DNA of 64,000 nucleotides. Source: Jiella marina. GTDB taxonomy: Bacteria > Pseudomonadota > Alphaproteobacteria > Rhizobiales > Rhizobiaceae. This document shows positions 34,868 to 46,723 of the stretch, one piece after another (positions within the stretch are counted from its first letter, which is position 1; every line of letters starts with the position of its first letter). The notes below the pieces were generated by a model. It made no database searches. It was not told the origin of the DNA and saw nothing but the letters and a program-made list of their open reading frames with translations. Location of the stretch: assembly GCF_024359545.1 (NCBI RefSeq), contig NZ_JAKQZG010000016.1, positions 1 to 64,000 on the forward strand, given 5' to 3'. The translations under genes and the position numbers were made by a program.

Positions 34868-35488
34868 ATGATCGGCAAGCTCAAGGGCACGATTGACGAG
34901 ATCGGCGAGGACCATGTGGTCGTCGACGTTCATGGTGTCGGCTATGTCGCCTTTTGCGGTGCCAAGACGCTCGCGGCGCTCGGCGGTGCGGGAGAAGCGG
35001 TGATCCTGTTCATCGAGACCATCGTGCGTGAGGACATGATCCGGCTCTACGGGTTTTCGAGCGCCGCTGAACGCGACTGGTTCCGCCTGCTCCAGACGGT
35101 CCAGGGCGTCGGCTCCAAGGTGGCGCTCGCGGTGATCGGGACTCTGTCGCCCGGCGATCTCGCCAATGCGGTCGCCCTCCAGGACAAGGCGATGGTCGCG
35201 CGCTCTCCCGGCGTCGGCCCGAAGGTCGCCGCGCGCATCGTCGCCGAACTGAAGGACCGTGCGCCAGCCTTTTCCGGTGCCGACGCCGAAGAAAGCTTCG
35301 GCCTCAAGCGCGACATCGGAGGCGGCACCGCCTCGGCGCCGATCGCCGACGCTGTCTCGGCCCTCACCAATCTCGGCTATGCTCGAGATCAGGCCGCCAA
35401 CGCCGTCGCGGCGGCCGTGAAGGAAGCCGGGGCGGATGCTGACAGTGCGAAGTTGATCCGGCTGGGGCTGAAGAAGCTGGCGCGCTGA
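34868..35488 (+). CDS. ruvA: Holliday junction branch migration protein RuvA
   Basis: A 206-residue RuvA of usual length. An N-terminal OB fold ([26 protein letters not shown]) is followed by two helix-hairpin-helix motifs ([22 protein letters not shown] and [18 protein letters not shown]) and a C-terminal domain III that contacts RuvB. It binds four-way junctions as a tetramer. ATG 34868 is chosen because the OB fold begins there. ruvC, usually just upstream in this order, is absent; a small secreted-protein gene occupies that place. Confidence 0.96.
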
Positions 35489-35550
35489 GCGCCCGGAAAG
35501 ATCGAGAGCGGTATTTCCGGCTGTCCGCCGGTGGCGAGCTCTGCTATTGT

Positions 35551-35685
35551 GACGCCATGCGCAACGATTCCGTCAGTTTTTCAGGCAATCGCAATTTTGG
35601 CCGCCGAAAGGCTTGGCGACGCATGCGCGTGTGATCTGCGCCCACGATAGTCCGTCTCAAGCCGCTCTTCGAAGCGGCTTTTTTT
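35551..35685 (+). ncRNA. candidate structured leader or small RNA upstream of the RNA ligase gene
   Basis: The 210-base gap between ruvA and the ligase gene holds a compact structured stretch. A GAAA-capped stem with a TT bulge lies at 35600-35617, CATGCG (35556-35561) can pair with CGCATG (35620-35625), and a strong terminator closes it. A TATTGT that could serve as a -10 lies at 35545-35550. A 25-codon frame (35557-35634, ATG to TGA, Arg-rich) overlaps it but has no good ribosome-binding site, so a leader peptide is possible but unproven. It is either an attenuator for the ligase or an independent small RNA. Confidence 0.4.
35659..35685 (+). terminator. rho-independent terminator just upstream of the RNA ligase
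   Basis: An 8-bp perfect stem (35659-35666 with 35673-35680, CTTCGA loop) runs into seven Ts. It ends 13 bases before the GTG start of the ligase gene, and the ligase ribosome-binding site GGAG (35688-35691) follows directly. It could end ruvA transcription or attenuate ligase expression. Confidence 0.85.
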
Positions 35686-35698
35686 ATGGAGTTGGGAA

Positions 35699-36865
35699 GT
35701 GTTCCCGGTCATAGAACATATCGACGACGTGTTGCCGCACATTGCGGGCGACAATGGCATCTATGTCTCGAAATACGCGACGCACGATACGATCGACTAC
35801 GGGCATCATCTCGATGAGACCTTCAATTCGGCCATCAGACGCGAGTGCCGAGGCCTGAAGTTCAACAAGTCCGGACGGCTCATCGCGCGGCCCTTCCACA
35901 AATTCTTCAACCTCGGCGAACGGGAACGGGTCGAGGATGTCGATTGGTCAAGGCCGCATCGAATCCTGGAAAAGCTCGATGGTACGATGATCCATCCAGC
36001 TTTCGTGGAAAGCGAAATGGTATTGATGACCCGAAAGGGCATTACGCGACAGGCGCTCGAGGCAGCGTCGTACGCGACCGAAGGATTGCTCGCTCTGGCA
36101 CGCGATCGCTTGGATGTCGGCAAGACCGCCATCTTCGAATTCACATCGCCGGGTAGTCGGATCGTCATCGGTTATGACAAGCCTGCGCTGACACTTCTCG
36201 CCATCCGCGACAACACGACCGGTGCTTATGCGGATTTCGAGCTGATGCATGACATGGCCGGGCATTACGGTGTGCCGGTTGTCAGCAGCCATCGCGTCGA
36301 CGGTTCCACCCCCACTTTTGTTTCGGGAGTTCGCGGACTCACCGAAATCGAGGGCTATGTGATCGTGTTCGATGATGGTCACCGGCTGAAGTTGAAGACC
36401 GACTACTACGCGCTGCGGCACAAGACGCTTGCCAGTCTGGCGCTCGAAAAGAACGCGCTGGATCGTGTGCTAAAGGACGCTGTCGACGACGTGGTGCCGC
36501 TTCTTCCCCCTGCGGCTGCACAAAAGCTCTTGGCCTACCAAGTCGCTGTTCTGGCTGGTGTCTCGCGTCTCGACACGCATGTGGCTGAACTGCTCGAGCT
36601 CTATCGCAGCGCGGATCGTAAGACCCAGGCACAGGTGATCAACGAGAAGCTGGACAAGCGCCTGCGCCCCGTTGCCTTCAAGTCCCTCGACGGCAAGAGT
36701 TCGCGGAATGCTATTCTTGACATCCTTCGGTGGGCATCACACAGCCAGACGCGGATTGATGCGGTTCGGGATCTGTTCGCCATGTCCTGGAATGGCGAGG
36801 ATTTCGAGATCGAGGATGGCTGGTCGGATGAGAAGGAAAGCGATTGTCTGAGACGGACCGCCTGA
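35699..36865 (+). CDS. T4 Rnl1-type RNA ligase
   Basis: A 388-residue protein. Nucleotidyltransferase motifs are in order: motif I KLDGT with nucleophile K92; [15 protein letters not shown] (motif III region, about 145-159); EGYVIVF (motif IV, E218); and KLKTDYY (motif V, K231/K233). RRECRGLKF precedes the active site as in phage T4 Rnl1. The C-terminal 140 residues are helical. Length is close to Rnl1 (374). It should seal RNA 3'-OH/5'-phosphate ends with ATP. Start GTG 35699 has GGAG seven bases upstream. GC is much lower than in flanking genes, suggesting acquisition. No kinase/phosphatase partner is adjacent. Confidence 0.85.
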
Positions 36866-37884
36866 TCTCCCCCGAAAAGCGCGGCGAGGATATCGACGCG
36901 ACCTTGCGCCCCCAGCGGCTCGACGATTTCGTCGGCCAGGCGGCGGCGCGGGCGAATCTCAAGGTCTTCATCGAGGCGGCGAAGGCGCGCGGCGAGGCGC
37001 TGGATCACGTGCTCTTCGTCGGGCCGCCCGGCCTCGGCAAGACGACGCTCGCCCAGATCATGGCGAAGGAACTCGGCGTCAATTTCCGCTCGACCTCCGG
37101 TCCGGTGATCGCCAAGGCCGGCGATCTCGCCGCGCTCCTCACCAATCTGGAAGAGCGCGACGTGCTCTTCATCGACGAGATCCACCGCCTCAACCCGGCG
37201 GTCGAGGAAATCCTCTATCCGGCGATGGAGGATTTCCAGCTCGATCTCATCATCGGCGAGGGACCGGCCGCGCGTTCGGTGAAGATCGATCTGTCGAAAT
37301 TCACCCTCGTCGCCGCGACGACCCGGCTTGGCCTTCTGACGACGCCGCTGCGCGATCGCTTCGGCATTCCGGTCCGGCTGAATTTCTACACGGTCGAGGA
37401 ACTGGAACATATCGTCACCCGCGGCGCCCGGCTGATGCAGATGCCGATGGGCGAAGACGGGGCGAAGGAGATCGCCCGCCGCGCCCGCGGCACGCCGCGC
37501 ATCGCCGGCCGCCTCCTGCGCCGGGTCCGCGATTTCGCGCAGTTTGCCGGGGCCGAAACCGTGAACCGCAAGGTGGCCGACGAAGCGCTGTCGCGGCTCG
37601 AGGTGGACAGCCTCGGCCTCGACCAGCTCGACCGGCGCTATCTCGACCTCATCGCGCTCAATTTCGGCGGCGGTCCGGTCGGCATCGAGACCATCGCCGC
37701 CGCGCTCTCCGAGCCGCGCGATGCGATCGAGGACATCGTCGAGCCCTATCTCCTGCAGCAGGGCTTCCTCCAGCGCACGCCGCGTGGCCGGCTTCTAACG
37801 CAACATGCGTTCCGCCATCTCGGCCTCGCGGTGCCGCCGGCCTATCAAGGCGTCCAGTCGAACCTCTTCGACGAGGGCGAATAG
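36844..37884 (+). CDS. ruvB: Holliday junction branch migration ATPase RuvB
   Basis: A 346-residue AAA+ motor. Walker A is GPPGLGKTT, Walker B FIDEIHRL, sensor 1 AATTRLG, and the arginine finger region RDRFGI; the winged-helix DNA-binding domain is C-terminal. The start is TTG 36844, the only codon that matches the family's N terminus ([10 protein letters not shown]). It lies 22 bases inside the RNA ligase gene, with GAAGGAAA upstream, so the two are translationally linked. Confidence 0.96.
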
Positions 37885-45640: not shown

Positions 45641-46723
45641 ATGAAGTCCGGCCTCGTCGTTTCCTCGATCCTCCATGCGGCAGCCCTCACCTGGGGGCTG
45701 TGGGCACTGGGTGCGCCCGAGCCGATGGAAGTGGCGGCGGTGGATTCCCTGCCGGTCGAGCTCGTGCCGCTCGAGGCCTATTCCCAGTCGGTAATCGGCG
45801 CCGAGGACGCGCCGGTGGCCGATACGCCAGCGCCCGAACCGACCGAGGCGTCCGAATCCGAGCCCGCCGAGAATGTCGGCGACAACACGGTCGATCTGCC
45901 GACACCGCCGACGCCGACGGAGCGACCGAAGGCGACGGAACAGGCGGCCGCACCCGCGCCGGCCCCAGCCGAGCCGGCGCCGCCCGAACCTGCGCCAGAG
46001 CCGGAACCCGCGCCGACGCCGGAGGCCGTGCCGCTGCCGGAGCCCGATCCGCAGCCTGCAGCGGAACCGGAGCCCGCCCCTCAGCAGGCCGAGCCGGAAC
46101 CCGAGCCGCAGCCTCAGCCCGATCCCATCGAGCAGGCGATCGCCACCGCCGAGCCTCAGCCCGAACCCGGGCCGGCGACGCCGCCGGAGCCGCAGAACGT
46201 GCCGGTTCCGACTGCCCGGCCGGAGCCGCCCGCACCGAGACCTGCCGAGATGCAGCAGGCCGAGCGTCCGCGCGAGCCGGCGACCCAGACCGCGCAGCAG
46301 GAAAGCGAATTCGATCCCGACAAGATCGCCGCGCTCCTGAACAAGGAGAAGTCGGCCGGCGGCGGGGCGCAGAGCTCGCAGCGGCAGGCGGCCCTCGGCG
46401 GCGAGCGCACGACGGGGGGCCGTCTTTCGCAGAGCGAGCTCGACGCGCTGCGCGGCCAGGTCAGCCGCTGCTGGTCACCGCCGGCTGGCGTTTCGGAGGC
46501 GGGATCGCTGCGGGTTTCGATCCGCATGCAGCTCGACCCGTCCGGCGGTCTCGAAGGCCGCCCGGTCCTGGTCGACGGCGGCGGCGGTACACCGATCGAG
46601 CGGGCAGCAAGCGAGGCGGCGCTCAGGGCGGTGATCCGCTGCGCGCCCTATCAGTTGCCGGCGGAGAAATACGACACGTGGTCCGAGGTGATCCTGAACT
46701 TCGACCCGCAGGAGATGTTTTGA
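45641..46723 (+). CDS. tolA: Tol-Pal system periplasm-spanning protein TolA
   Basis: A 360-residue protein. An N-terminal helix (about 5-25) anchors it in the inner membrane. A very long Pro/Glu/Ala-rich region (about 55-225, with repeated E-P-x-P and P-E-P units) takes the place of the helical domain II of E. coli TolA. The C-terminal domain (about 268-358) has a Cys pair (RCWSPP, IRCAPY) and the R-V-S-I-R-M-Q-L-D-P core. The Pro-rich linker should be extended. Its TGA stop forms part of a short hairpin. Confidence 0.92.
   Translation: MKSGLVVSSILHAAALTWGLWALGAPEPMEVAAVDSLPVELVPLEAYSQSVIGAEDAPVADTPAPEPTEASESEPAENVGDNTVDLPTPPTPTERPKATEQAAAPAPAPAEPAPPEPAPEPEPAPTPEAVPLPEPDPQPAAEPEPAPQQAEPEPEPQPQPDPIEQAIATAEPQPEPGPATPPEPQNVPVPTARPEPPAPRPAEMQQAERPREPATQTAQQESEFDPDKIAALLNKEKSAGGGAQSSQRQAALGGERTTGGRLSQSELDALRGQVSRCWSPPAGVSEAGSLRVSIRMQLDPSGGLEGRPVLVDGGGGTPIERAASEAALRAVIRCAPYQLPAEKYDTWSEVILNFDPQEMF

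Follow-up and report, generated by a model that had tools for sequence, protein, structure and literature searches.

T4 RNA ligase 1 (Rnl1) repairs tRNA cut by anticodon nucleases. A gene of the same family lies between ruvA and ruvB on a 64,000-nucleotide stretch of DNA from Jiella marina (contig NZ_JAKQZG010000016.1; "the window" throughout), and the first 210 bases of positions 35489-37884 of that stretch are a conserved leader ahead of the ligase, not plain spacer. The ligase is probably a stand-alone RNA-repair enzyme under a transcription attenuator that monitors translation, the two forming a movable unit that sits by chance in the ruvA-ruvB gap. This reading, drawn from sequence comparison, is assigned a probability of roughly 0.6.

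The nearest regulated ligase in the literature searched is RtcB under RtcR (PMC7790460). The RtcR-controlled rtcBA genes are likewise an RNA-repair ligase operon answering RNA damage, but their CARF activator binds cyclic-phosphate tRNA fragments, whereas the leader described here is proposed to sense translation in cis, and the ligases are of different types. If the proposal is right, the locus carries an RNA-repair switch without a protein regulator, unlike RtcR. Pnkp1-Rnl-Hen1 (PMC4411300) is also a bacterial RNA repair ligase, but it is a three-protein complex with two non-ligase members. Attenuation by an upstream open reading frame (ORF) is known in Sinorhizobium meliloti (DUF1127, PMC12218461) and for toiL in Escherichia coli (PMC12121999). 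These ribosome-mediated attenuators, and the amino-acid and antibiotic-resistance leaders, likewise combine a short upstream ORF with a proposed terminator/antiterminator switch. The DUF1127 leader has a C-rich, G-poor spacer, as do the ligase leaders (152 C and 62 G among 458 bases after the small ORF stop in 17 leaders). The ligase leader differs from the known attenuators in that it would control an RNA ligase, lacks a codon run and has an intrinsic hairpin, whereas Rho takes part in toiL and probably in DUF1127. Among the papers listed from the literature searched, which left preprints and most subscription journals outside, none describes leader control of a bacterial RNA ligase as far as title and opening of the abstract show, and no paper in that literature brought together "RNA ligase", "leader peptide" and "anticodon nuclease".

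The ligase gene and the features proposed for its leader are as follows.

35699-36865, + strand: RNA ligase of the T4 Rnl1 family, 388 amino acids; GTG start, with GGAG 7 nucleotides (nt) upstream; between ruvA and ruvB.
35542-35550, + strand: weak promoter-like extended -10, TGCTATTGT, read from the sequence just upstream of the small ORF.
35557-35634, + strand: small leader ORF, MRNDSVSFSGNRNFGRRKAWRRMRV, 25 codons plus TGA, from sequence comparison.
35605-35622, + strand: proposed antiterminator strand within the small ORF, forming an RNA duplex with 35652-35667.
35652-35667, + strand: partner of the antiterminator strand (flank plus left arm of the terminator), forming an RNA duplex with 35605-35622.
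35659-35685, + strand: intrinsic terminator, AAGCCGCTCTTCGAAGCGGCTT plus five T; below the strict hairpin score and above the looser one.

The ligase matches Pfam RNA_lig_T4_1 (PF09511) at 84.2 bits, above the gathering cut-off of 28.3, and PHROG 562 at 196.3 bits over 47-358 of 377 profile positions. Against NCBIfam TIGR02308 it scores 130.7 bits, below the equivalog cut-off of 242.25; by these sequence comparisons it is a member of the Rnl1 family, not an equivalog of T4 RnlA. All three solved sequences that match it are T4 RNA ligase 1 (E values 5e-27 to 3e-26). K92 (in KLDG), E147, E218, K231 and K233 are invariant across a 21-row alignment, and we take them to be the KxDG lysine, the motif III and IV glutamates and the motif V KxK. 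The AlphaFold model has a mean predicted local distance difference test (pLDDT) score of 89.4, and its C-terminal part is helical. Two statements of an earlier note, made from the DNA alone, that an Rnl1-type ligase lies between ruvA and ruvB and that its active site is intact, are borne out by these results. The protein shares with T4 Rnl1 the nucleotidyltransferase residues and similarity across most of its length, including part of the C-terminal region. It differs in being chromosomal, in belonging to a supported clade without viral rows, in falling short of the TIGR02308 equivalog score, and in lacking an adjoining Pnkp. As the note had said, neither a kinase nor a nuclease adjoins the gene. 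It also differs in being preceded by the leader, which was not found in 78 viral homologues.

In the window the stop of the small ORF is followed by 24 nt, the hairpin with its five T, 13 nt and the ligase GTG. The small ORF also has 25 codons in two other genomes of the genus (our numbers G004 and G008; the window's own is G000), and AGGCAATCGCAATT is identical across the three, as is the terminator hairpin. The counterpart of the -10-like sequence in both is TGCTATGAG. The same general plan, an ORF of 25-46 codons, an intrinsic terminator, the ribosome-binding site of the ligase and the ligase itself, was found in 27 loci. It occurs in Mesorhizobium, Rhodobacteraceae, Ruegeria, Kiloniellaceae, Pelagibius, Neomegalonema and others. 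The small ORF stops 22-32 nt before the terminator in 26 of these loci, several of which offered more than one start or ORF, of which one was chosen, and 27 nt before it in L213. In 19 of the 27 a TTGAC box is found upstream of the small ORF, at a distance of 46-58 nt.

A fixed scan recovered the terminator in 25 of the 27 leader loci (0.7% of shuffles), the small ORF in all 25 terminator-positive loci (10.5% of shuffles) and a Shine-Dalgarno sequence in addition in 16 (1.5% of shuffles). Applied to 78 viral homologues (78 of 80 loci retained from 478 relatives found), the same scan gave 11 terminators and no small ORFs, and it gave none among seven other bacterial contigs. Eight of the 33 named contigs from which leader loci were drawn are not counted as such (L092, L106, L112, L113, L115, L117, L118 and L119), L106 because its match does not start where the gene does; L120-L125 lie outside the sample. 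L213 is the sole distinct leader locus added later, by genome search, while L206, L212 and L217 repeat L097, L103 and L110 as judged by eye. The distance from the hairpin to the start of the ligase match is at most 34 nt in 25 of the 27 loci (40 in L111, 52 in L105), which, as read from the sequence, leaves a promoter little space downstream of the hairpin. Rfam gave no match at gathering score anywhere in the window, and a known structured RNA in the ruvA-ligase gap was rejected on that ground.

The proposed mechanism would run as follows. Transcription would start upstream of the leader ORF. While the leader is translated normally, ribosomes would keep the last 10-20 codons of the ORF from pairing; with the end of the ORF masked, the GC-rich hairpin would form and RNA polymerase would halt before the ligase. 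Should leader translation fail or stall, the end of the ORF would pair with the left arm of the terminator, a pairing for which there is covariation support, and polymerase would then read through so that ligase is made. The ligase would seal breaks with 3'-OH and 5'-P ends, most likely anticodon loops of tRNAs cut by toxins, as suggested by the T4 Rnl1 family. Sealed tRNAs would restore translation, and the ligase would thereby switch itself off.

The pairing on which the switch would depend was examined across the leader loci. Compared with shuffled ORFs, the final 90 nt of the small ORF form a stronger duplex with the left arm and its 8-nt flank (mean z -1.36 across 27 loci; Fisher p=1e-5 for 17 lineage representatives, with the p-value of L116, 0 of 500 shuffles, entered as 0.002). 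ORFs also prefer the arm of their own lineage over those of other lineages. After removal of row and column effects this advantage is -2.71 kcal/mol (permutation p=5e-5, 17 lineages), and the 90 nt upstream of the small ORF, used as a control, show no such advantage (p=0.72). The competing antiterminator pairing thus appears, from these sequences, to be conserved by covariation. The corresponding duplex reaches p 0.016 in G004 (L098) and p 0.002 in G008 (L087). Leader peptides are otherwise dissimilar between lineages, which fits a leader in which translation, and not the product, would matter.

Several results weigh against the attenuator. The leader loci were first picked by eye and only then scanned. 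The window's own leader is weak: it has no TTGAC box (nor have G004 and G008), no Shine-Dalgarno sequence, no promoter by consensus scan, and a hairpin below the strict score. That score is passed by 21 of the 27 loci and failed by the window, G004, G008, L091, L102 and L104, and L091 and L104 stay below the terminator score even in the looser scan. The duplex in the window is -17.0 kcal/mol against -13.8 for shuffles (p 0.10), and 33% of shuffles of its leader fold equally well. Only 3 of 17 lineages have their own arm as best partner, and in the window it ranks fourth of 17; for L094, L099 and L103, pairing with the own arm is weaker than the average over the other arms. In partition-function folding the left arm pairs with the ORF at 0.62 against 0.49 for shuffles (Wilcoxon 5e-4, Fisher 0.025), which is a modest difference. 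The value is 0.62 with a stalled ribosome, 0.55 for naked RNA and 0.52 with a lone ribosome at the stop; under full ribosome cover it is 0 by construction. Because naked RNA and the lone ribosome differ little from the stalled one, masking would need ribosomes spread along the ORF, and by this model read-through would occur at any time when the end of the ORF is not under translation. No clear protector hairpin of the classical type appears in the folding of the leaders. Finally, no leader was seen in four members of the ligase's clade (L092, which was scanned; L216, which was read; L214 and L215, which were viewed in part).

The phylogeny bears on the movable unit. In a tree of 103 rows, 27 chromosomal ligases form one alphaproteobacterial clade with support 100/99 and no viral rows. 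Twenty-three members have the leader; the four without it (L092, L214, L215 and L216) form a sub-clade with support 99/95. The tree omits 13 loci removed by hand, 2 that lack the 270-residue aligned segment, 10 duplicates and L114, in which the ligase is in two pieces. Neighbour clustering over 31 loci, which excludes the ligase itself, ORFs on the opposite strand and the content of clusters numbered 25 or higher, revealed ruvA and ruvB in two genera and beyond these no family in more than 4 loci. A conserved partner gene as a general explanation was rejected on this count. The best explanation of these sequence data is that leader and ligase stay together and are carried as a movable unit. 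A recent plasmid origin was also rejected: the plasmid nucleotide search gave no matches, and the 27 records from the protein search all cover less than 80% of the query.

Three observations concern individual members of this group. The sequence upstream of the ligase in L092, L214, L215 and L216 resembles the beginning of a urease gene in the opposite orientation, as judged by reading, no search having been made. A record titled as an Anaerolineae (Chloroflexota) metagenome-assembled genome (L090) has a clade member that is sister to L097; its contig is perhaps misbinned. In Mesorhizobium sp. WSM4313 (L114, 5001-6118) the ligase is in two overlapping pieces, as if frameshifted, and the leader is retained.

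Of 595 codons in the 17 leaders, 37 encode asparagine, where shuffles give 19.1 +/- 3.7; its z of 4.9 is the largest among the 20 amino acids, and the other two frames hold 13 and 2. Tyrosine (z 3.7), glycine (2.4) and aspartate (2.3) also lie above the shuffles, and histidine, isoleucine, tryptophan and proline below them. A more far-reaching reading is a self-tuning repair circuit. In it the asparagine-rich leader would sense the loss of working tRNA, tRNA cut by a toxin or a phage-defence nuclease would stall ribosomes and open the attenuator, the ligase would mend the tRNAs whose loss had induced it, and the unit would spread between alphaproteobacteria and replace VapBC beside ruvAB. This fuller version is possible, and we hold it with clearly less assurance than the attenuator itself. 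For chromosomal Rnl1 ligases, a leader that ties expression to translation would offer a cheap route to the substrate by way of the inducing toxin.

The same codon counts can be read in another way, namely that the attenuator answers amino-acid starvation (asparagine first) or ribosome-targeting antibiotics, and that the ligase has a general stress role and does not answer its own substrate. Asparagine is present in the leaders of 15 of the 17 lineages, and both toiL (PMC12121999) and the DUF1127 upstream ORF (PMC12218461) respond to antibiotics. However, the leaders of L090, L097, L094 and L108 have no asparagine, there is no single-codon run of the kind found in classical amino-acid leaders, and a ligase is not known to take part in amino-acid synthesis. 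We consider this account rather doubtful.

The distribution of the ligase is patchy. Three of the 10 genomes of the genus carry it (the window's, G004 and G008), always between ruvA and ruvB, and the window's own genome has a single copy. Matches of any kind occur in 5 of 101 relatives; for the class the count is 6 of 385 genomes, and for the order 11 of 397. All of these sets include the window's own genome, and several hits are incomplete or phage-like. The same gene between ruvA and ruvB throughout the order, which the earlier note had named as a refuting result, is not what is seen. Outside the genus, none of the 65 family genomes surveyed, of which 63 gave a gap measurement, has the ligase in the ruvA-ruvB gap; the 65 were taken from 148, nearly all from the top of the RuvB ranking, and two of them (G030 and G171) have no ruvA within about 4.4 kb upstream of ruvB. 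Base composition differs as well. The GC content is 66.8% in ruvA, 57.6% in the leader, 57.5% in the ligase, 67.2% in ruvB and 64.6% in the window, and GC at third codon positions is 69% in the ligase against 82-87% in ruvA and ruvB. The block counts made by hand in the earlier note were reproduced (51.7, 51.7, 61.7 and 71.7%). The lower GC content given there is supported, and so, by the genome counts above, is a lineage-specific insertion.

In the genus the gap is usually held by VapBC, an AbrB/MazE-type antitoxin gene followed by a PIN-domain toxin gene, in 6 of 10 genomes (L031, L032, L034, L037, L038 and L039; Pfam assignment made on the pairs of G003 and G005), and an RNA-acting gene in the gap is therefore the norm there. 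The toxin stop codon overlaps the ruvB start in four of the six (G001, G003, G005 and G007). In G006 (L033) the gap is a 98-nt scar that retains the tail of VapC. Among family genomes outside the genus, VapBC occupies the gap in 24 of the 63 in which it was measured, and one more has vapC only. VapBC also adjoins ruvAB in Rhizobium leguminosarum (RL3987-RL3990, PMC11406972). It is likewise an RNA-acting neighbour of ruvAB, but its VapC cuts RNA whereas the window's ligase joins it, and the gene numbers place vapBC beside ruvA and not in the ruvA-ruvB gap, unlike the ligase. The gap of L244 holds a VapC-like tail that resembles the scar of G006, as judged by eye. Two further gaps, those of L077 and L081, are occupied by 477 nt of AT-richer DNA containing an ORF and by 522 nt containing an ORF that resembles a membrane protein.

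It is suggestive that VapBC and the ligase alternate in the same gap. This raises the possibility that the ligase is a functional counterpart of VapC, which took the VapBC slot beside ruvAB and undoes the cuts of PIN-domain tRNases. If the ligases of the clade act without a kinase, their substrates must have 3'-OH and 5'-P ends. VapC toxins cleave anticodon loops (PMC6459853) and their products are reported with 3'-OH/5'-P ends (PMC7180214), which Rnl1 could join without a kinase; section 12 of PMC6459853, on the other hand, gives the products a 5'-OH. No full-length T4-type Pnkp, a kinase-phosphatase, was found in the ligase's own genome or among the 10 leader-ligase genomes searched, which would suit a ligase of this kind. 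The PNKP-type protein of Consotaella salsifontis (G060), used as a query, gave partial matches of 43-155 residues in three of these genomes and none in the other seven. Against the idea, the numbers of PIN-domain proteins are not tied to the ligase (5, 11 and 12 with it; 20, 10, 4, 17, 18, 14 and 16 without it), and ruvAB adjoins the unit in only 5 of the 27 leader loci. That the ligase is such a counterpart of VapC is, on balance, unlikely. Consotaella salsifontis also has a prophage-like locus (L004, 1504-3554, on the contig of L118) in which an Rnl1 ligase directly follows a gene for a PNKP-type phosphatase-kinase fusion.

In the five loci beside ruvAB (three from Aurantimonas/Fulvimarina and, in L088 and L114, two Mesorhizobium species) the ligase lies between ruvA and ruvB; the remaining 22 are not known to lie there. 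In a plainer account of the leader, ruvA ends in an ordinary terminator, the acquired ligase has an unrecognised promoter of its own and the small ORF arose by chance. The hairpin does start 170 nt past ruvA, and the weakness of the window's own leader suits this account. However, the spacing of ORF and hairpin recurs where the preceding gene is not ruvA, the small ORF is far more frequent than chance would give, and the space after the hairpin is short, so that we regard a plain terminator as decidedly improbable. Least likely, by a little, is that the leader is an independent gene for a small RNA or peptide, co-inherited with the ligase and perhaps its RNA substrate or partner: a promoter-like box, an ORF and a terminator would make a complete unit, and it adjoins the ligase in all 27 leader loci, but the peptides are unlike between lineages, Rfam recognises nothing in the window at gathering score, and the ligase would be left little space for its own promoter.

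The preferred reading, an attenuator that travels with the ligase, has consequences for the genes on either side, which are the following.

34868-35488, + strand: ruvA, 206 amino acids; Pfam RuvA_N/HHH_5/RuvA_C, TIGR00084 185.6 bits.
36821-36865, + strand: 14-residue C-terminal extension of the ligase, where the stop codon of G004 and G008 is lost; it creates the overlap with ruvB.
36844-37884, + strand: ruvB, 346 amino acids; TTG start, the same as in G004 and G008.

The ruvB TTG lies 22 bases inside the ligase ORF, as had been claimed. In G004 and G008 the ligase stop TGA precedes the ruvB start and there is no overlap; the window reads TGG at that position, and the ligase frame continues for 14 codons into ruvB. 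Residues 372-388 of the ligase have pLDDT below 50 in the AlphaFold model, and the extension stretch is predicted to be disordered. Since the stop is present in two of the three species and the added residues have such low scores, the overlap appears to be minor and recent, not designed. The idea that ruvB was purposely nested in the ligase was rejected, since the nesting is found in one of three species by way of a single lost stop codon. That ruvC is missing upstream of ruvA is true, as the earlier note observed, but it does not mark an insertion. All 10 genomes of the genus have one ruvC away from ruvA, on another contig than ruvB or, in G001, about 3.27 Mb distant in contig coordinates, and ruvC displacement was accordingly dropped as an insertion mark.

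The note had further proposed that RNA sealing was wired into the Holliday-junction operon. The data speak against this: the terminator at 35659-35685 parts ruvA from the ligase, which has its own leader; the unit has other neighbours than ruvAB in most loci; the overlap with ruvB is unique to the window; and VapBC is the usual occupant of the gap. In the window's species ruvB would sit downstream of the proposed attenuator and would need read-through or another promoter. If coupling exists, ruvB has been placed under the ligase's switch, and not the ligase under ruvAB control. The case would then be one of a gene lodging in a DNA-repair operon and leaving ruvB behind an unrelated switch. Trees of ruvA and ruvB, in which many branches are weakly supported, do not group the window's genome with G004 and G008; because of this, the ligase may have entered the gap, or survived in it, more than once.

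Elsewhere in the window, ARAGORN calls a 98-nt tRNA-Pro at 45907-46004 (- strand). The call is probably spurious, because the stretch is repetitive and GC-rich and looks like low-complexity coding sequence.

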